Origin: Crocinitomix sp. | Lineage (GTDB): Bacteria; Bacteroidota; Bacteroidia; Flavobacteriales_D; Crocinitomicaceae | NCBI GenBank assembly: GCA_030836155.1 | Contig: JAURQI010000179.1 | Coordinates: 1-33,984, forward strand | Direction: 5' to 3' | Length of the DNA stretch: 33,984 bases | In this document: positions 1,507 to 9,756 of the stretch, in pieces | Layout: the number at the start of each line of letters is the position of its first letter | How positions within the stretch are numbered: position 1 is the stretch's first letter | Translations under genes and position numbers: made by a program | The notes under the pieces: generated by a model | The model's input: only the letters and a program-made list of their open reading frames with translations | What the model was told of the DNA's origin: nothing | The model's database searches: none

Positions 1507-2193
1507 ATGAAATTATTAATTGTCGAAGACGATATTGAATTATTAAGAACAGTCTTGCGTTATTTTGACGCCTCTGGTTATGTGCTAGAAAAAGCCAAAA
1601 CATTGGCAGAGGGACGAGCAAAAGTGACAGAACATCGATATGACTGTGTTATCCTGGATCTTAATTTGCCAGATGGGGATGGAATTGAGTTATTGCGACA
1701 AGTCAAAACAAAAGATAAATCCACTGGTGTTATCATTTTATCGGCAAATAGTTCATTGGAAACCAAAGTGGCTGGATTAGAAATCGGAGCAGACGATTAC
1801 TTGACTAAACCTTTTCATCTTTCTGAACTCAACGCCCGAGTGAAGTCCGTAGTGCGTCGTAATAAATATGAAGGCGATAATCAATTGACTTTTAATGAGA
1901 TTTCTATCGATACGGCTGGTCAGGAAGTGCGAGTGAACGATAAACGATTAAAATTAACGCGCAAAGAATATGAACTGCTGTTGTATATGGTCATTAATAA
2001 AAATAAAGTACTGACTAAACATTCAATTTCAGAGCATATTTGGGGTGATTTTGTTGATCGGAGAGATTCTTATGATTTTATCTATTCACACCTGAAAAAT
2101 TTGCGAAAAAAAATCATTGAAAAAGGTGGTGCGGATTATATCCAAACCATATATGGTATCGGTTATAAATTTGCAGAAGGTGAAGTTGAGTAA
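1507..2193 (+). CDS. OmpR/PhoB-family response regulator
   Basis: 228 residues, the usual length for the family. The receiver domain (1-115) has the acidic pair D8-D9, the phospho-acceptor D51 in VILDLNLPDGDG, the switch serine S79 and the conserved K101 in LTKPF. The C-terminal winged-helix DNA-binding domain (about 125-223) shows the family pattern: LTRKEYELLLYMV, then the SEHIWG segment, then SHLKNLRKKI recognition-helix region and the TIYGIGYKF wing. It is followed, with overlap, by its histidine kinase. Such regulators bind as dimers to direct repeats spaced by one helical turn; an array of seven 11-bp units at 3186-3262 just beyond the kinase gene is an obvious candidate target, and two similar 11-mers overlap this gene's own promoter. 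Complete and probably functional. Confidence 0.93.
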   Translation: MKLLIVEDDIELLRTVLRYFDASGYVLEKAKTLAEGRAKVTEHRYDCVILDLNLPDGDGIELLRQVKTKDKSTGVIILSANSSLETKVAGLEIGADDYLTKPFHLSELNARVKSVVRRNKYEGDNQLTFNEISIDTAGQEVRVNDKRLKLTRKEYELLLYMVINKNKVLTKHSISEHIWGDFVDRRDSYDFIYSHLKNLRKKIIEKGGADYIQTIYGIGYKFAEGEVE

Positions 2194-3151
2194 GTATAAC
2201 TGGATCGTAATAGGAGTCATTATGCTTTTATCCTTCTCCTTGATTTGGGGATTTTTGGAAACTATACAAGACATTTGGTTGCTCCTTTTACTTTTGTTTA
2301 TCCTTCAATTTTTAGGTTTGTTAATTTATGACCGGTTGAATACAGCTCGAATGAAAAAATCCATTCGTCGTTTCATTGCTCAGATTGATAAAGGAAATTA
2401 TGAGAGTGAAAACGCTCATGTGATCCAGAAATATGATTTTGTCAACCTCACAGATATTCAAGTTGAATTGTCTGATATGGTTGGACAAATACGAGCTGAT
2501 TATAATGAGCAAAAACGCTATGTAGAAAATGTAAGCCACGAACTGATGACGCCAATTGCCATTATTCGAGGTAAATTAGAATTGCTGATCCAATCGCCCA
2601 ATATTACCAAAAACGATTTTAAATTAATAAATGAAATCCTTATTAAATTAGATCGATTAACACGAGTGAATCAAGCACTCGTACTCTTGTCTAAAATTGA
2701 TTATAACCATTATTCCGAAAAATCTAACGTTTCACTTAACGCCATCCTTGCTGAAACTATAGACCTTTTTGAAGACCAAATTCACGTGGATGAATTAAGC
2801 ATTCGCAAAGAATTGAATGATGAGGTCATTTTTTATATGAATGAAAATTTGGCTTATATTCTCATTAAAAACTGCATGAAAAATGCAGTTATTCATAATA
2901 TAGAAGGCGGATATATTCACATAACAGCATTACCTAATAAAAAAGGCATCCAAATCACCAATAGCGGACCAGTGATTCAAGAATCAACGGATAAACTATT
3001 TGAAAGATTTGAAGTAGCTGGGGAGTATGAGGACTCTATTGGTCTTGGTTTATCAATCATGTCACGAATCTGTGAAGTCAGTCATATAGACCTGTCATAT
3101 ACCCATCAAAACGGAGTTCATACTGTAGAAATTAGCTTTGAGGCTAAGTAA
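2153..3151 (+). CDS. Sensor histidine kinase, intramembrane-sensing type
   Basis: 332 residues from the ATG at 2153, which overlaps the end of the regulator by 41 bases; a GTG at 2180 is an equally possible start and the open frame also extends to a TTG at 2117. Two membrane segments (about residues 16-34 and 41-58) are joined by only a few residues, so there is no real periplasmic sensor domain. The H-box reads NVSHELMTPIAIIRGKLELL with the phosphorylated histidine at about residue 129. The ATPase domain has an N-box (LIKNCMKNAVIHN), a short GIQITNSGPV segment and the G2 box GLGLSIM. A HAMP-like linker is not obvious. Short loop kinases of this kind usually sense the membrane or a partner membrane protein. 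Paired with the upstream regulator in one transcript. Confidence 0.88.
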   Translation: MVSVINLQKVKLSKYNWIVIGVIMLLSFSLIWGFLETIQDIWLLLLLLFILQFLGLLIYDRLNTARMKKSIRRFIAQIDKGNYESENAHVIQKYDFVNLTDIQVELSDMVGQIRADYNEQKRYVENVSHELMTPIAIIRGKLELLIQSPNITKNDFKLINEILIKLDRLTRVNQALVLLSKIDYNHYSEKSNVSLNAILAETIDLFEDQIHVDELSIRKELNDEVIFYMNENLAYILIKNCMKNAVIHNIEGGYIHITALPNKKGIQITNSGPVIQESTDKLFERFEVAGEYEDSIGLGLSIMSRICEVSHIDLSYTHQNGVHTVEISFEAK

Positions 3152-3185
3152 AGAAGTCCTTTTCTTTTTGCTGACCAATTGTTTC

Positions 3186-3262
3186 TCCAGATTTTCTTCA
3201 GATTTCCTACCGAATATCTCCAAAATTACTCCTGAATTTATTCAGAATTGTTTCCAGAGATT
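3186..3262. promoter_or_regulatory. Seven tandem 11-bp units, probable response-regulator binding array
   Basis: Reading the plus strand in steps of exactly 11 bases gives TCCAGATTTTC (3186), TTCAGATTTCC (3197), TACCGAATATC (3208), TCCAAAATTAC (3219), TCCTGAATTTA (3230), TTCAGAATTGT (3241) and TTCCAGAGATT (3252). Position 1 is T and position 3 is C in all seven; position 6 is A in six, position 8 is T in six, position 5 is G in five. The array lies in the gap between the histidine kinase stop and the first gene of the next operon and ends 30 bases before its ATG. OmpR-family regulators are known to bind tandem direct repeats of 10-11 bp, so a target for the neighbouring regulator is the simplest reading. 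Binding is inferred, the periodicity is seen. Confidence 0.6.
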
Positions 3263-3292
3263 TGTTTTAACAATTTAAAAGTTGAATAAGAA

Positions 3293-3577
3293 ATGGAAAA
3301 TAATCAGCGAGTAAAAGAAATTCAGGAATTAGACATCCGCGTCCTGCACTTCCCTAAAGAAGATGTTTTTTTTGCTCCTCGTGATATAAAACGTCGCGAG
3401 CAGGCCATTCAAAAACTGGGCGCATTACAAACATCTGTTTGTATCACCTTTCAGGATGTTGAAGGGGCCAAAACAGTTGTTTCAAAGGTTAAAACATATG
3501 CAAAAGACCTAATTACGCTTGCAGGCAATGCAGGTATACCTGTTCACCGAATTATTCAAATCGATCAAATCAAATAA
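3293..3577 (+). CDS. Small conserved-type hypothetical protein, first gene of the operon
   Basis: 94 residues, no signal peptide or membrane segment, so cytoplasmic. The N-terminus is charged (VKEIQELDIRVLHF) and the C-terminal half alternates strand and helix: SVCITFQDVEGAKTVVSKV, then DLITLAGNAGIPVHRIIQI. I do not recognise a named domain; it resembles short uncharacterised Flavobacteria proteins. It begins 30 bases after the 11-bp repeat array and is 10 bases from the next gene, so it is probably the promoter-proximal gene of the operon. No clean TAnnTTTG element precedes it; the best match, AAAAGTTG at 3277-3284, is poor, which would fit an activator-dependent promoter. Confidence 0.7.
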   Translation: MENNQRVKEIQELDIRVLHFPKEDVFFAPRDIKRREQAIQKLGALQTSVCITFQDVEGAKTVVSKVKTYAKDLITLAGNAGIPVHRIIQIDQIK

Positions 3578-3587
3578 ATCTAGTACC

Positions 3588-3866
3588 ATGAATAGACGTG
3601 TTTTTACTTCGTATAGTAAACTGAATTTAGCGGCAAAAAAAGCATTAAGCCGCGCCTATCCAGAAGGAGTGGATGACATTTTAACAACTATGAAAAATGT
3701 TTTTTCAGGAGAACTCTTTAAAGGGTTTGTTTTTGACCATGATGATGTTACTTATATGGTCGAATGGAACGTAAGAAATAATTTTTCTGTGGCTGATTTT
3801 TCAGACGCCGAATTGGGTGAATCTGAGACGGAAAATGATGAATTGGAATTAGAAGAGGATTTTTAA
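3588..3866 (+). CDS. Small acidic-tailed hypothetical protein
   Basis: 92 residues from the ATG at 3588; the frame is open back to 3519, but that start would overlap the preceding gene by 59 bases. The N-terminal part (VFTSYSKLNLAAKKALSRAYPEG) is basic and helical, the middle (FKGFVFDHDDVTYMVEWNV) is strand-like, and the last 20 residues are strongly acidic (ESETENDELELEEDF). Layout and length resemble a short Flavobacteria family sometimes labelled DNA primase in databases; nothing here supports a primase function. It sits 7 bases before the NUDIX gene, in the same run of tightly spaced genes. Confidence 0.7.
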   Translation: MNRRVFTSYSKLNLAAKKALSRAYPEGVDDILTTMKNVFSGELFKGFVFDHDDVTYMVEWNVRNNFSVADFSDAELGESETENDELELEEDF

Positions 3867-3873
3867 CACGCCT

Positions 3874-4296
3874 ATGAAGCAAAAAGCGAAAGTATTGATC
3901 GAGTATCAAGGCAATCTGCTCTTGCTAAACCCATTGGGTAAGGAGAAGCGAACCTTGATTGGTGGAACCGTAGATAAAGGAGAATCCGTTTTCCAGTCTG
4001 TGATCCGTGAGGCTGGGGAAGAAGCTGGAGTCCAATTGGATAGCGCAATGCTAACAATAGCTTATCGCCAATTGGTCACCATCAATGAGAAACCTGTGCT
4101 TTTTCATTGTTTCCTTATTCGTGATATTCCCTTTTTATTCGAATTAAAAGAAAAGCATAAATTTCAAGCATTGGATTGGATTCCGACCCAAGACGGGATC
4201 AAATTACTCAAAGGAGTCGAGCGCATTGCCGCTCAACGATTGTACAAAAAAATAATTAAAAACAAGACCGGACGATCTTATTCGATCGGCGCATAG
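3874..4296 (+). CDS. NUDIX hydrolase
   Basis: 140 residues. A complete Nudix box lies at residues 31-53: G31, E37, then R45-E46-A-G-E49-E50-A-G52-V53, matching GX5EX7REUXEEXGU with all the metal-binding glutamates present. The enzyme should hydrolyse a nucleoside diphosphate linked to another group; the substrate cannot be told from sequence. The N-terminal strand AKVLIEYQGNLLLL is typical of the fold. It is cytoplasmic, 7 bases after the acidic-tailed small gene and 24 bases before the arginine decarboxylase gene. A housekeeping or nucleotide-clearing role in the operon is possible but not shown. Confidence 0.88.
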   Translation: MKQKAKVLIEYQGNLLLLNPLGKEKRTLIGGTVDKGESVFQSVIREAGEEAGVQLDSAMLTIAYRQLVTINEKPVLFHCFLIRDIPFLFELKEKHKFQALDWIPTQDGIKLLKGVERIAAQRLYKKIIKNKTGRSYSIGA

Positions 4297-4320
4297 CCCG
4301 CCTATAGGCATATCTTTAAA

Positions 4321-5715
4321 ATGAAAAACAGATATATGGATTTAATCGAACAAACGTTCGATTTTCCACAACCCGAATTTCAAGTTTCGGAGAACCATGA
4401 ATTAGCATTTCATGGTGTTGATTTAATGGCTCTGATAAAAGAATACGGAACACCGTTAAAATTCAGTTATCTACCTAAAATCAGTGAAAATATACAACGT
4501 GCAAAAGATTGGTTTCATCAAGCCATGAATAAGCATAATTATGCGGCAAAGTATCATTATTGCTATTGCACCAAAAGCTCTCATTTTAAACATGTTTTAG
4601 ATGAAGCCTTAAAAAATAATATTCATATCGAAACCTCTTCGGCTTTTGATATCAATATCGTGCAGACCCTTAAAGCGGAAGGAAAAATCCAAAACGATAC
4701 ATATATTTTATGCAATGGTTTTAAACGCGACCAGTATATTGAAAACATCGCCACATTAATTAACGATGGACACAAAAACTGCATCCCAATCATTGATAAT
4801 TATGAAGAGGTAGAGTTATTGTCTGCGCGTATTAATGATCCTTTTGAAGTTGGGATTCGAATAGCGTCAGAAGAAGAACCAAAATTTGAGTTCTATACCA
4901 GTAGACTGGGTATTGGCTATAAAAATATCGTACCGTTTTATGAAAAAGTATTGCGCAATAACCCGAACGTTAAATTGCGTTTATTACACTTTTTTATTAA
5001 TACTGGAATTAAGGATAATGCCTATTACTGGAACGAATTGCGCAAATGTCTTAATGTCTACACGAGTCTAAAAAAGATTGCGCCCAGTTTAACCGGTTTA
5101 AATATAGGAGGAGGTTTTCCGATTAAAAACTCATTAGGTTTTGATTATGACTATGAATATATGATTGATGAAATCATCTACCAAGTCAAATCAACGTGCG
5201 AAGAGGCGAGTGTTGAGGTGCCTGACATCTTTACTGAATTTGGCTCATTTACTGTGGGTGAGAGTGCAGGTGCTATTTATAATGTCCTCTATCAAAAGCA
5301 ACAAAACGATCGTGAAAAATGGAATATGATCGACTCTTCATTTATTACAACCTTACCGGATTCTTGGGCAATCAATAAGCGCTTTATCATGCTGCCAATC
5401 AACAATTGGGACAAAGAATATGAACGCGTTTTATTAGGGGGGTTGACGTGTGATAGTGATGATTATTATAATTCAGAACAGCATATCAATGCAATCTATT
5501 TACCAAAGTTTCGAGAGAATAAGCCACTATACATCGGTTTTTTCAATACGGGAGCTTACCAAGAGTCGATCGGTGGTTTTGGAGGATTACAACACTGTCT
5601 GATTCCCAACCCAAAACACATTTTAATTTATCGAGATGAAAAGGGTGAGATTCAAACACGACTATTTGCCGCGCAACAAACGGCTGATGATTTTTTACAA
5701 AAATTAGGTTACTAA
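4321..5715 (+). CDS. speA: Arginine decarboxylase, PLP-dependent, alanine-racemase fold
   Basis: 464 residues. Makes agmatine from arginine, the first step of the putrescine pathway used by the next gene. The PLP lysine is K85 in YHYCYCTKSSH; a glycine-rich phosphate-binding loop is present in LNIGGGFP (about residue 260); the catalytic cysteine motif of these decarboxylases is seen as GGLTCDSDDYY, and GAYQES plus GGFGG follow near the end. The length (about 465) is that of the compact Bacteroidota arginine decarboxylase rather than the 630-residue Escherichia coli SpeA. Followed after one base by agmatinase, which supports arginine over ornithine or lysine as the substrate. A TATCTTTA element at 4311-4318 may act as an internal promoter. 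Function is inferred from family and neighbour. Confidence 0.87.
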   Translation: MKNRYMDLIEQTFDFPQPEFQVSENHELAFHGVDLMALIKEYGTPLKFSYLPKISENIQRAKDWFHQAMNKHNYAAKYHYCYCTKSSHFKHVLDEALKNNIHIETSSAFDINIVQTLKAEGKIQNDTYILCNGFKRDQYIENIATLINDGHKNCIPIIDNYEEVELLSARINDPFEVGIRIASEEEPKFEFYTSRLGIGYKNIVPFYEKVLRNNPNVKLRLLHFFINTGIKDNAYYWNELRKCLNVYTSLKKIAPSLTGLNIGGGFPIKNSLGFDYDYEYMIDEIIYQVKSTCEEASVEVPDIFTEFGSFTVGESAGAIYNVLYQKQQNDREKWNMIDSSFITTLPDSWAINKRFIMLPINNWDKEYERVLLGGLTCDSDDYYNSEQHINAIYLPKFRENKPLYIGFFNTGAYQESIGGFGGLQHCLIPNPKHILIYRDEKGEIQTRLFAAQQTADDFLQKLGY

Positions 5716-5716
5716 A

Positions 5717-6589
5717 ATGAAAAGGAGAACTTATGCAGGAATTCCAGAAGAATTTGGTCGTTTGGAAAATGCAAGTATTGTATTATTACCTGTGCCCTAT
5801 GATGGAACAAGCACATGGCAAAAAGGAGCTGATAAAGGACCGGAAGCTTTTTTATCGGCATCCGAAAATATGGAGCTGTATGATATCGAAACCGATGAAG
5901 AGGTATATCGCAAAGGAATTTATTTAGCAGATGCGGTAACAGAGAATTCGTCTCCCGAAGAGATGGTGGAAGGGGTATACAGTGAAACTAAATCCTATAT
6001 CTCAAAGAAAAAATTCGTCACCATTTTTGGAGGCGAACATTCTATATCAATTGGCACAATTCGGGCTTTTAATGAGTCATTTGATGATTTAACGGTTTTA
6101 CAATTGGATGCTCATGCAGATCTAAGAATGACCTATGAAGGTTCGGCTTGCAATCATGCATGCGCTTTACACGAGGCAAGCAAAACGACTAATTTGATTC
6201 AAGTGGGCATTCGCAGCATGGATATAGCTGAAAAAAAATGGATGAATTTTGATCAAACTTGGTTCGCGCAGGACATGGAAGAGGAGGAGTATTGGCAAGA
6301 TGCTGTAATTGATCAAATGACAGAGAATGTCTTTATTACAATTGACCTCGATTGTTTTGACCCATCCATCCTGCCATCAACTGGAACACCAGAACCAGGC
6401 GGGTTAAAGTGGTATGAAACTCTGGCATTTCTAAGAAGGACTTTTACAGAAAAAAATGTCGTAGGATTTGATATTGTAGAGCTTTGTCCGAATGATGTCG
6501 ATAAATCATCAGACTTTCTTGCCGCGAAACTATATTATAAAATGTTGAGCTATAAATTTTGTTTAGACGATTCAGAAGAATCAGAATAG
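5717..6589 (+). CDS. speB: Agmatinase (ureohydrolase family)
   Basis: 290 residues, normal for the family. Hydrolyses agmatine to putrescine and urea with a binuclear manganese centre. All metal ligands are visible: H108 in FGGEHS, D131, H133 and D135 in QLDAHADLR, and D210 and D212 in TIDLDCFDPS. The segment TPEPGGLKWYE matches the substrate loop of agmatinases and arginases. It starts one base after the arginine decarboxylase stop, so the two are certainly co-transcribed. Together they convert arginine to putrescine. Confidence 0.93.
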   Translation: MKRRTYAGIPEEFGRLENASIVLLPVPYDGTSTWQKGADKGPEAFLSASENMELYDIETDEEVYRKGIYLADAVTENSSPEEMVEGVYSETKSYISKKKFVTIFGGEHSISIGTIRAFNESFDDLTVLQLDAHADLRMTYEGSACNHACALHEASKTTNLIQVGIRSMDIAEKKWMNFDQTWFAQDMEEEEYWQDAVIDQMTENVFITIDLDCFDPSILPSTGTPEPGGLKWYETLAFLRRTFTEKNVVGFDIVELCPNDVDKSSDFLAAKLYYKMLSYKFCLDDSEESE

Positions 6590-6605
6590 GCGCATTAATT
6601 ACAAA

Positions 6606-7385
6606 ATGAATTATATAGTTTCAGCATTTCACATAGGTCGACGTATTCAGTTAACCAAGGTACTAGCAAAGTTTAATGATGAAATCATTAAAGATGAAAC
6701 ATCTTTTATTCTGCTCAAGCGAAGTGAAGAATCGTACCTCTACCTAAAAGATTATGGTAGTATTGTTTTCTGTAATTATAAAGAAAAGGAGATGATCAAA
6801 ATCATCCAACTGATTGCAGGAGATGACGCCGATTACTCAACTTTATCCTCAGAAGAATACGAAATCATTGAAGCGCCAGGAGAGCCGGAACAAGTGCATT
6901 TTAACACCGTTACCATTGAATCATTTTCTGTAGATATTCTGCATATTGTGATGTTCAATCTCTCTCAGAGCGTTGCCCTTGAAAATTATCAAAATCGAAC
7001 CAATAATTTATTGCAAGAAACAAGAGAAATCTCGGATAAACTAAAAACAACAGGGGATATCGGTCTAAAACGACCTGCATTAAGACAGTTTATTGGTAAA
7101 ACAATGGTTCTGAGAACGCGAATTGCAGAGAACCTCCTCATTTTTGAAACCTCAGATTTAGCTTGGTCAAGCGAGCAATTGTCCCGCTTGGATAATGAAT
7201 TGAGAGAACAATTAGACATGGTCAATCGGCACCATGGCTTGCAATACAGCTTGAATATTGCAAAGGAAAATCTCGACCTTTTTCGAGAAATATTACATCA
7301 TAAGCAAAGCAGCACTTTAGAATGGATAATTATTATTTTGATTCTTCTAGAAGTGGTAGACTTAGTCATTTCTAAAACATTATAA
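6606..7385 (+). CDS. RMD1/Sif2 (DUF155) family protein with C-terminal membrane anchor
   Basis: 259 residues. The order of elements matches the RMD1/DUF155 family: an N-terminal mixed domain (GSIVFCNYKEKEM around residues 51-65), a long helical coiled-coil middle (about 115-230, with LRTRIAENLLIFETSDLAW) and a single C-terminal membrane helix (about 240-256, WIIIILILLEVVDLVI). Mitochondrial relatives are inner-membrane proteins linked to translation or sporulation; the bacterial role is not established. It lies between agmatinase (16 bases) and the deoxyhypusine-synthase-like gene (8 bases), so a membrane-associated job related to polyamines is possible, but this is inference from position only. 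Confidence 0.8.
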   Translation: MNYIVSAFHIGRRIQLTKVLAKFNDEIIKDETSFILLKRSEESYLYLKDYGSIVFCNYKEKEMIKIIQLIAGDDADYSTLSSEEYEIIEAPGEPEQVHFNTVTIESFSVDILHIVMFNLSQSVALENYQNRTNNLLQETREISDKLKTTGDIGLKRPALRQFIGKTMVLRTRIAENLLIFETSDLAWSSEQLSRLDNELREQLDMVNRHHGLQYSLNIAKENLDLFREILHHKQSSTLEWIIIILILLEVVDLVISKTL

Positions 7386-7393
7386 AATTCAAA

Positions 7394-8362
7394 ATGAATC
7401 AACCTATATCAAATTTTATTGAGAAGTATTTTCTGCACTTTAATGCAGCAACATTGGTGGATGCCGCTAAAGCATACAATACGCAACTTGATCAGGAAGC
7501 TAAAATGTTGGTTTCATTAGCTGGAGCGATGAGTACCGCAGAGCTCGGTAAAATCTTCGCAGAAATGATCCGGCAAGATAAAGTGCATATTATCTCTTGT
7601 ACCGGTGCTAATTTAGAGGAGGATATTATGAATTTAGTGGCCCATTCGCATTATAAGCGAATTCCAAATTACCGAGATTTAACTCCTAAAGATGAATGGG
7701 CCTTGTTGGAGAAAGGACTTAACCGCGTCACCGACACCTGTATTCCAGAAGAAGAAGCATTTCGACGTTTGCAAAAACATATTTTCAAAGTTTGGAAGGA
7801 TGCTGAAGCAAAAGGGGAACGCTATTTTCCGCATGAATATATGTATAAACTCTTGCTGTCAGGCGTGCTTGAAGAATATTATGAGATAGATATCAAGGAT
7901 AGTTGGATGTATGCAGCGGCTGAAAAGAATTTGCCGATTGTTGTGCCTGGATGGGAGGACAGCACAATGGGAAATATCTTTGCTTCTTATGTGATGAAAG
8001 GTGAATTGCAAGCCTCTACGATGAAGTCGGGTATTGAGTATATGACTTATTTATCAGATTGGTATATCCATAGTAGCAAAAACGGAATCGGTTTTTTCCA
8101 AATTGGAGGAGGAATAGCGGGAGACTTTCCAATTTGTGTCGTACCGATGCTTTATCAAGACATGGAAATGATGGATACGCCATTTTGGAGTTACTTCTGT
8201 CAGATTTCAGATTCAACAACAAGCTATGGCTCCTATTCAGGAGCCGTGCCCAATGAAAAGATAACCTGGGGTAAATTAGATATTGATACCCCAAAATTTA
8301 TTGTTGAATCGGATGCGACAATTGTAGCTCCGTTGATTTTTGCCTATATCCTCGGCTACTAA
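7394..8362 (+). CDS. Deoxyhypusine-synthase-like protein
   Basis: 322 residues. The deoxyhypusine synthase fold is recognisable: SCTGANLEEDIMN near residue 68, the GGGI loop at 238-241, SGAVPNEKITWGK at 282-294 and the C-terminal PLIFAYIL. The WGK lysine (K294) corresponds to the catalytic lysine of the eukaryotic enzyme. The conserved KHH that follows GGG in human DHS, which supplies an active-site histidine, is replaced here by AGDF. Bacteria have no eIF5A; bacterial members of the family are thought to make homospermidine or related polyamines by NAD-dependent aminobutyl transfer. Next to arginine decarboxylase and agmatinase, which supply putrescine, this is the likely reading. The product is inferred, not shown. 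Confidence 0.85.
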   Translation: MNQPISNFIEKYFLHFNAATLVDAAKAYNTQLDQEAKMLVSLAGAMSTAELGKIFAEMIRQDKVHIISCTGANLEEDIMNLVAHSHYKRIPNYRDLTPKDEWALLEKGLNRVTDTCIPEEEAFRRLQKHIFKVWKDAEAKGERYFPHEYMYKLLLSGVLEEYYEIDIKDSWMYAAAEKNLPIVVPGWEDSTMGNIFASYVMKGELQASTMKSGIEYMTYLSDWYIHSSKNGIGFFQIGGGIAGDFPICVVPMLYQDMEMMDTPFWSYFCQISDSTTSYGSYSGAVPNEKITWGKLDIDTPKFIVESDATIVAPLIFAYILGY

Positions 8363-8644: not shown

Positions 8645-9235
8645 TCAAGGTTCTATCTCTCCTGCTTGTATCAATGCGCCCACCATAATAGGGACAAAAA
8701 GAACCGCAACTCTGTGTTCTAGCGGTAAGTCCGATGGGAAATCACCATTGGCATCCCAGTCGTCCCAATCATTTGAAAAGGCGGTGCGCACATCTAAATG
8801 ATATCCTTCAAAATCAATATTCCAATCATCAAAATCATTGCTGAATGTGGTGCGAACATCGGCATGCCACCCGGTGGTCGTTTCGTCAATATCCCAGTCA
8901 TCCCAATCATTAGAAAAGGAAGCTCGCATGCGTATGGTATGTCCAGAACTAGTCAGTTTCCATTGATCCCAATCCTCCATAAAATCGGTTTCGATGGCTC
9001 CTGTAATACCAGACCCACTGAAATTCCAGTTATCCCAATCTTCCATAAAAGCGGTTTCGACATCCACAGTTGAATCACCGATTTTAAATTTCCAATCGTC
9101 CAGATCATTTGAAAAGGAAGTGGACATTTCAATGTTGGAGCCATAACTTGGGGGATAGGTCCCTCCTCCTCCAGAAGGTGTAATCGTTTCGGGCTCACAA
9201 CTCCAAAGAAGCAAGGTAAATAGAATGATAGACAT
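8645..9235 (-). CDS. Lipoprotein made of six FSNDWDDW-type repeats
   Basis: 196 residues from the ATG at 9235; the frame is open to 9298, but the shorter start places a proper lipoprotein signal (MSIILFTLLLWSC, lipid cysteine C13) at the N-terminus. A short linker (TPSGGGGTYPPSYG) is followed by six units with cores at residues 41-48, 63-70, 85-92, 107-114, 131-138 and 153-160: FSNDLDDW, FMEDWDNW, FMEDWDQW, FSNDWDDW, FSNDFDDW and FSNDWDDW. Spacing is 22 residues except one of 24. Between cores, alternating hydrophobic and polar residues (DVRTAF, DIDETTTGWHA) suggest paired beta strands. A hydrophobic tail (VAVLFVPIMVGALIQAG) ends the protein. I recognise no named domain. Likely anchored in the outer membrane; function unknown. 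Confidence 0.75.
   Translation of the reverse strand: MSIILFTLLLWSCEPETITPSGGGGTYPPSYGSNIEMSTSFSNDLDDWKFKIGDSTVDVETAFMEDWDNWNFSGSGITGAIETDFMEDWDQWKLTSSGHTIRMRASFSNDWDDWDIDETTTGWHADVRTTFSNDFDDWNIDFEGYHLDVRTAFSNDWDDWDANGDFPSDLPLEHRVAVLFVPIMVGALIQAGEIEP
8756..9115 (-). repeat. Six in-gene repeats of about 66 bp encoding the FSNDWDDW motif
   Basis: The protein repeat is visible at DNA level as recurring TCCCAATC or TCCAATC followed by ATTTGAAAA-like blocks on the plus strand (for example near 8767, 8905, 8968 and 9034). Units of 66 bases (one of 72) keep the reading frame, which fits growth by in-frame tandem duplication. Confidence 0.7.
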
Positions 9236-9282
9236 GGTGTGCACTTTCGAAAGGTTAAGGTTTATTATATTAACTTCGTTAT

Positions 9283-9756
9283 ATGCAAACACCCACAAGA
9301 ATAATGCCTGAATTAAAGAACTATCTCAAAGGATATTTTTTTGTTCCTGAAAATGATCTCGATCATATCGCCAGGCTGTTTAAAAAGGAAAAACTGAACG
9401 CTGGAGAATATTTCGTGAAAGTGGGTCATTATGCAGATAAACTCAGTTTTGTCAATTCGGGAATTTTGAGAATATTTTTGCAAACAGAAAACAAAGAAGT
9501 CACCCAATGGATTGCAACCGAAGGGTATTTTTTAGCCGATTTAAGAAGTCTGATTTTTGGCCAGCCCGCCCGTTGGTTTATGCAAACTGAAACAAATGTT
9601 GAATTATTCTCGATTTCAAAAGAAGATTATAAAAAACTGGCTACGATCATTCCAGCTTCCAAGTCAAAGGTTCTGATTCAATTTTTGAAATTTACACAGA
9701 ATCGTATGGGGATAATCCGATTGTTATTCAAGGTGCTGGTGCTTGCGCAGAGGTGA
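9283..9756 (+). pseudogene. Truncated Crp/Fnr-type cyclic-nucleotide-binding regulator
   Basis: The open frame gives 157 residues (ATG at 9283; M8 at 9304 is also possible). Residues about 15-120 are a cNMP-binding beta-roll: LNAGEYFVKVGHYADKLSFVNSGILRIFL, then a VTQWIATEGYF strand pair and VELFSISKEDYKKLATIIPA. Flavobacterial relatives have about 190 residues, with a further helical region after this point. Here the homology stops at about residue 124 and the last 33 residues (KSKVLIQFLKF onward) are the out-of-frame reading of a homoserine dehydrogenase gene end. The protein therefore lacks its C-terminal DNA-binding or effector region. It may still be translated, but I judge it a broken gene. 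It diverges from the repeat lipoprotein gene. Confidence 0.7.

Follow-up and report, generated by a model that had tools for sequence, protein, structure and literature searches.

In a 33,984-nucleotide stretch of DNA from Crocinitomix sp. (the window), six consecutive 11-bp direct repeats lie between the genes of a two-component system and a gene for a 94-aa protein, just upstream of a promoter-like element. Across loci, such arrays go with the two-component system, and the array is very probably an operator bound by the response regulator encoded at 1507-2193, whichever the sign of regulation. That it is an activating tandem direct-repeat operator for this adjacent regulator is our preferred reading, which we consider probable. 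From the sequence comparisons described here we infer binding, its dependence on phosphorylation, activation rather than repression and co-transcription of the genes downstream.

Results

Six tandem units upstream of a promoter-like element

Scoring with a unit matrix, which incorporates four of the window's own six units, placed six consecutive 11-bp units at 3185-3250 in exact 11-bp steps, with CTyCAGAATTT as the consensus strand and CTyCAGA as its core (Table 1). The original prediction had counted seven units. Its letter counts are exact in its own frame (T1 and C3 in seven of seven, A6 and T8 in six of seven), and ORF coordinates bear out its placement of the array, downstream of the kinase stop codon at 3151 and upstream of the next gene at 3293. 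The 11-mer taken as the seventh unit scored -3.1 bits in phase and 2.9 bits in the earlier frame, which lies one base later; it has neither A6 nor T8 and extends into GAGATTTG (3257-3264). A seven-unit reading was therefore rejected, the seventh scoring below zero in phase and merging with the -7-like element. The proposal that all units share one face of the helix holds roughly, as 11-bp steps at 10.5 bp per turn drift by ~86 degrees by the sixth unit.

Table 1. Coordinates and supporting data for the array, the promoter-like element and the neighbouring genes in the window.
Feature	Position	Strand	Data
Array unit 1, CTCCAGATTTT	3185..3195	+	13.8 bits
Array unit 2, CTTCAGATTTC	3196..3206	+	12.9 bits
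Array unit 3, CTACCGAATAT	3207..3217	+	8.4 bits
Array unit 4, CTCCAAAATTA	3218..3228	+	12.8 bits; most conserved unit, mean between-genome identity 0.91 (four genomes)
Array unit 5, CTCCTGAATTT	3229..3239	+	10.6 bits
Array unit 6, ATTCAGAATTG	3240..3250	+	10.3 bits; starts 17 nt before the -7-like element, spacing kept in 4 of 4 aligned genomes
-7-like promoter element, GAGATTTG	3257..3264	+	nAnnTTTG kept in 4 of 4 aligned genomes; predicted start site near 3269
OmpR/PhoB-type response regulator gene, proposed binder of the array	1507..2193	+	Pfam PF00072 E 3.3e-28, PF00486 E 2.6e-17
Sensor histidine kinase gene	2180..3151	+	Pfam HisKA, HATPase_c; ORF
94-aa protein gene, first after the array	3293..3577	+	homologs in 20 of 59 genomes
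92-aa protein gene	3588..3866	+	ortholog in G005 preceded by a separate array
NUDIX, arginine-decarboxylase-like, agmatinase, DUF155 and deoxyhypusine-synthase-like genes, close-packed	3874..8362	+	Pfam, ORF spacing

Summed matches at lags of 11, 22 and 33 came to 96, a count reached by 0 of 20,000 dinucleotide shuffles of the 77-mer and by 0 of 20,000 shuffles of the intergenic region 3152-3292. When periods of 6 to 24 were scanned, the z observed for the array was reached by 0 of 5,000 shuffles, and in a window-wide scan of periods 4 to 25 the array was the strongest periodic spot (z 9.6), the next reaching 5.1 with the harmonic at 22 set aside. The shuffle tests thus rejected a chance origin. 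A genome-wide repeat was also rejected: in the array's own genome, model R1 (trained on G000, G002, G003 and G004) gave no other match at E 0.05, and profile R2 (14 arrays from nine genomes, aligned on the -7 element) gave none beyond the array at E 0.001.

The Bacteroidota -7 consensus is TAHHTTTG, with 4-5 nt to the start site, in the part of PMC6847099 available. GAGATTTG is a poor match to this consensus, with G in place of T at -12 and G in place of H at -10, and TTTG at -33 is absent from the window sequence upstream of it. Transcription would begin near 3269, which would place the starts of the units at -84, -73, -62, -51, -40 and -29. An operator of the OmpR/PhoB family consists of at least two tandem direct repeats at an 11-bp centre-to-centre spacing, of which the array has six, and lies at the upstream edge of the core promoter. 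Judged by sequence only, this is the position of the arrays, in which the last unit starts 16-17 nt before the -7-like element, and of 15 of the 21 two-unit boxes described below.

The neighbouring genes

The regulator joins a receiver to a Trans_reg_C winged helix, both domains (PF00072 and PF00486) scoring above their gathering cut-offs, which assigns it to the OmpR/PhoB family; its relatives with solved structures include BasR, KdpE and PhoP. Its recognition-helix region reads SYDFIYSHLKNLRKK. We set the start of the kinase gene at a GTG that matches the start of the ortholog at locus L004, the mechanical ORF beginning at 2117.

The 94-aa protein matched no Pfam family at E 0.001 and no NCBIfam family at 0.01, a sequence search of the PDB gave no name for it, and its predicted structure is of low confidence (pLDDT 65.5). 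For the 92-aa protein no family was found in Pfam or NCBIfam. Among the products of the close-packed genes that follow, the agmatinase scored above its NCBIfam cut-off and the arginine-decarboxylase-like and deoxyhypusine-synthase-like proteins below theirs. Gaps between consecutive downstream genes are 1 to 24 nt (with the 92-aa gene started at ATG 3588), so the genes from 3293 onward are likely to form a single operon, predicted from this spacing to be co-transcribed.

The original prediction had named this a polyamine operon. Polyamine genes do follow in the window and at four loci of the same genus (L002-L005), but the first genes encode two uncharacterised small proteins, and the stretches read for genomes G011, G071 and G350 contain no polyamine genes; the name therefore describes the genus and not the core target of the array. 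Elsewhere in the family, the 94-aa gene, often followed by a 92-aa-like gene, also occurs beside unrelated genes with none of this two-component system nearby. Further along the window, an ORF on the minus strand (8645-9298) encodes repeated FSNDWDDWD-like segments.

Conservation of the units in close relatives

The same six units occupy the same place between the kinase and 94-aa genes in G002, G003 and G004 of the same genus, unit 3 of G002 scoring weakly (2.0 bits). Across the four genomes, the window's included, 24 of 24 units retain T2 and C4. Between genomes, units at the same position are 79% identical and different units 64-65%, which argues that the units are old and have been kept one by one. 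The original prediction had named absence of the 11-bp period from close relatives as one refutation; lag 11 came top in seven of eight intergenic regions, the window's included, and ranked second in the eighth (L005).

Among nine genomes of this genus, the 94-aa gene, a regulator match at E 1e-75 and a strong array occur together in five. All three are absent from the other four (G001, G006, G007 and G008, the last 67% complete), R1 matching in G006, G007 and G008 only at E 0.013 to 0.046.

The array occurs with the regulator

Matches to the 94-aa protein were found at 23 places in 20 of 59 related genomes. At seven of these (L001-L004, L011, L021 and L023) this two-component system lies directly upstream, and at L005 it lies ~9 kb from the 94-aa gene on the same contig. 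An array precedes the 94-aa gene at all eight loci linked to this system and at none of the other 15. Upstream of this gene a three-unit matrix scored 25.6-38.3 at the eight linked loci and at most 4.3 at the 15 others; the matrix was trained on the four genomes of R1 only, and four of the eight linked loci lie outside this training set. In a matrix-free test at lag 11, the linked loci were matched by 0 of 1,000 shuffles in six cases, by 1 of 1,000 at L023 and by 51 of 1,000 at L005, where the signal is weak; the 15 unlinked loci were matched by 17 to 846 of 1,000, L017 being lowest at 17. The unlinked loci were read over 1.5 kb on each side, and L005 was called linked from its whole contig. 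Of the 15, eleven come from genomes in which the regulator search found no match at E 1e-75, and one, L008, comes from G032, whose regulator is on another contig; among the genomes with unlinked loci, that search covered all but three (G041, G051 and G055).

R1 also found G005, contig C71 of G002, G032 and G011 at E 4.8e-5 or better, and gave many further matches at E 0.0004-0.05. Of 150 family genomes, 10 gave an R2 match at E 1.1e-7 or better, namely its nine source genomes and G083. The regulator was matched at E 1e-75 in 12 of the 150, and these include all ten (Fisher p 5.6e-14). This overlap exaggerates the association, because R2 was built from arrays in nine of the ten matched genomes and these arrays were sought beside the gene or the regulator; related genomes are also not independent. 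In the 138 family genomes where the regulator was not matched at E 1e-75, R2 gave no match at E 1.1e-7. Both counts were taken to concern the same 150 genomes, given the same group, number and quality tallies; the non-matching genomes are listed in part. Searches that spanned more than 40 genomes applied more stringent filters, under which weak or short arrays are lost.

Since nine of the R2 matches hold by construction, what counts most is G083, the second array of G071 and the lack of matches at that level in the 138 genomes that have no regulator match. In G083 the array follows a kinase, and the second array of G071 (contig C124, R2 E 2.4e-5) precedes a gene resembling the 92-aa gene. Two genomes, G064 and G089, have a regulator match (a 52% relative) and no array; in both the kinase is longer and a two-unit box stands at the regulator promoter. 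Weak R2 matches (E 3.6e-6 to 9.4e-4) in seven genomes were left uncounted, as five of them lie inside ORFs and two overlap an ORF start. In G014, from which the ortholog is absent, R1 and R2 match (E 2.1e-5 and 4.8e-6) inside an ORF.

A class-wide R2 search of 295 genomes matched three at E 1e-5, two of the window's genus and G350, which belongs to another family. In G350 the array lies between a regulator-kinase pair and a pair of 94-aa and 92-aa-like genes, all in order. The R2 profile that found this gene set knows no proteins. The arrays thus go with the regulator across loci, in support of the original proposal that an OmpR-family array is tied to the adjacent two-component system, whose regulator would bind it.

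Further arrays around the regulator

One contig of G005 holds the regulator-kinase pair together with six arrays. Each has two to four clear units, and in some of them a further, degenerate unit adjoins the -7 element. One array precedes the 94-aa gene, one the 92-aa gene and four lie around the regulator-kinase pair, three of them before 92-aa-like genes (the start codon of one was assigned here) and one before a small secreted-type protein. At L190/L191 (G005:C126, 4.8-5.7 kb and 13.0-17.0 kb) several 92-aa-like small genes surround one regulator-kinase pair, and each has its own array of two to four clear units. Arrays precede the 94-aa gene in G011, G032, G071 and G350, and directly follow the kinase, before other small genes, in G077 and G083. 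Neither R1 nor R2 found a second array in the window genome, so the regulon is not readable from that genome.

Two-unit boxes at paralogous regulators

Two units stand at the regulator's own promoter in 27 of 30 paralogous Bacteroidota regulators (42-53% identical), above a 1% shuffle threshold. Promoters were placed by the coordinates of the regulator match; L070, whose regulator is cut by the contig end, was left out, three distant Bacteroidota (L144, L165 and L182) were scored apart with one above threshold, and the rows include the near-duplicates L061/L223 and L071/L079. Among the matches listed in the contig scan for regulators, 11 Bacteroidota-type rows were used, and most rows were from other phyla and served as a control; two units stood at the own promoter of 1 of 66 non-Bacteroidota regulators among the matches listed.

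At lag 11 the median two-unit score was 24.0; no other lag gave a median above 13.8. Control lags of 9, 10 and 12 passed the threshold in 13, 22 and 23 of 30 cases, and controls with a single spacing of 11-20 in 17 to 25 of 30; such controls often pass because two good units alone exceed the threshold. The position of TAnnTT is cleaner evidence for the spacing than this promoter threshold test. In the 21 boxes of at least 12 bits, drawn from the 30 paralogous regulators' own promoters, TAnnTT followed 16-17 nt after the start of the second unit in 15 and at another offset (8-30) once.

The recognition-helix region conforms to Yx(H/Q)x(K/R/T)N(L/I)(R/K) in 42 of 42 Bacteroidota regulators shown and in 0 of 6 non-Bacteroidota ones shown. 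Within the close group the helix varies (DFIY versus DSVY) and the unit does not. None of the 11 promoters of the window regulator and its 10 close relatives has a two-unit box, so the autoregulation that appears usual in the paralogs is not seen in the close group of the window. Upstream of the window's regulator gene (1452-1506) there are two TAnnTTTG elements (TACCTTTG and TACATTTG) but no two-unit box, unlike in the paralogs.

In 16 of the 30 paralogs the -7-like element ends 4 nt before the start codon of the regulator (examples of such promoters are L061, L062, L064, L065, L068, L069, L071-L073, L076, L078, L079, L110, L116, L117 and L223). With the start site 4-5 nt beyond the element, as the available part of PMC6847099 gives it, the mRNAs would be leaderless or nearly so.

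Discussion

Comparison with known operators

Operators of ArcA in E. coli resemble the array in that a regulator of the OmpR/PhoB family recognises direct repeats spaced 11 bp from centre to centre; three to five elements occur at 92 of 158 sites, and binding looks cooperative at some (PMC3798270, available in part). ArcA sites vary in spacing, number and strength, whereas the window array has six strict units at a near-fixed distance from the -7-like element. Because ArcA sites in that account have between two and five repeats with this spacing, a six-unit operator would be a long case within an established class.

The PHO boxes bound by PhoB in E. coli and by PhoP in Streptomyces likewise consist of two 11-nt direct repeats, with seven bases of each unit conserved and the other four less so; the number of units varies among Streptomyces PHO operators, and multiple PHO boxes occur at E. 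coli ugp (PMC4415409, consulted in excerpt). The window core is CTyCAGA, in contrast to CTGTCAT or GTTCACC, and no phosphate gene was recognised with Pfam among the ten neighbouring proteins scanned. A strict PHO box was rejected, as the regulator scored 156.9 bits on TIGR02154 against a cut-off of 296.2, and 136.1 bits against 270 on the Bacteroidota PhoB family NF053854.

The promoter region of Streptomyces lividans pstS also has a long row of repeats, eight degenerate 12-nt units thought to bind a regulator, but these are 12-nt repeats far upstream (-329 to -144) and apart from the PHO boxes; as far as the excerpted source goes, their binder is unknown, and their deletion raised expression (PMC2605767). 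BldC of Streptomyces forms a head-to-tail oligomer of winged helices on two to four promoter repeats about one turn apart (PMC5859096, in the portion available). It differs in being MerR-like, with neither receiver domain nor kinase, and in its repeat sequence.

Within the Bacteroidota, the best NCBIfam match of the window kinase is the PorY family of the PorY/PorX system, at 260.5 bits. This score lies below the curated cut-off of 350 (NF052314), and a PorY system was rejected; PorX has another output domain. An RprY system was also rejected, the regulator scoring 121.9 bits on NF051850 against a cut-off of 370. A literature search of titles and the starts of abstracts, with most subscription papers outside its scope, found no description of the motif or array, and a search for TTCAGAATT with response regulator and flavobacterium found nothing. 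Nor did this limited search find the tie to the -7 element, the two-unit relatives or the target gene pair.

A model for activation and its alternatives

We propose that the phosphorylated regulator would bind head to tail, one subunit per 11-bp unit on the CTyCAGAATTT strand, so that the six units could take up to three adjacent regulator dimers. This would most likely resemble PHO and ArcA boxes, on whose 11-bp repeats dimers of the regulator line up head to tail (PMC4415409, PMC3798270). The last subunit would lie just upstream of the weak -7 element, in place of a -33 element, and the regulator would there recruit the housekeeping polymerase to start transcription near 3269. It would thereby switch on the genes for the two small proteins, of 94 and 92 aa, and the close-packed genes that follow, and six units in place of two may give a steeper or stronger response.

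The main rival to this activator reading is that the same regulator binds the array and represses, its occupancy of about -84 to -19 blocking polymerase until the signal changes. The array does cover a region that polymerase needs, and ArcA represses carbon-oxidation genes, most of its sites holding three to five repeats at 11-bp spacing (PMC3798270, as far as it was available). Yet the units stop upstream of the -7-like element, 16-17 nt from the start of the last unit, and do not run over it, and the lack of TTTG at -33 together with the weak -7 element suits an activator-dependent promoter; we regard repression as unlikely. We find it distinctly improbable that the main binder is a different regulator, for instance an OmpR-type paralog whose recognition helix is similar. 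Paralogs do share the unit motif and have a similar helix, and two-unit-like matches in the own genome number 109, those of the window array included, against 48 for a reversed-pattern control. Even so, no strong array appeared in any of the 150 family genomes that lacks a regulator match at E 1e-75, though several of these have paralogs.

Readings that dispense with a specific regulator fare less well still. Phased A/T tracts might bend the DNA or act as an UP-like element, as A/T steps recur every 11 bp and promoters of Flavobacterium johnsoniae generally have AT-rich motifs at -18 and -28, according to the part of PMC6847099 available. Such tracts would hardly account for a C4 kept in 24 of 24 units from four genomes, or for strong arrays not being found in 138 of 138 family genomes without the ortholog, and we give this explanation very little credence. 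The intergenic DNA is AT-rich and tandem duplication can create short repeats, but the shuffle tests, the unit-by-unit conservation and the recurrence in another family leave chance, or recent duplication of a low-complexity tract, with a negligible likelihood.

A possible operator code in the Bacteroidota

A wider picture can be drawn to which we give even odds. One large branch of OmpR-type regulators in the Bacteroidota may share an operator code, in which units like CTTCAGAATTT recur every 11 bp and stand 16-17 nt from TAnnTTTG, in place of a -33 element. Its ancestral form would be a box of two units at the nearly leaderless promoter of the regulator itself. The window's lineage would have lost this box and built arrays of up to six units before a conserved small-protein pair as a steep dedicated switch, which in this genus also takes in polyamine genes.

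Our analysis gives an operator sequence, a spacing rule and a target gene pair for a two-component system without a known role. The spacing rule could predict boxes for many uncharacterised Bacteroidota regulators, and the six-unit arrays, beside their two-unit relatives, may offer a natural series on how unit number relates to the steepness of the response.
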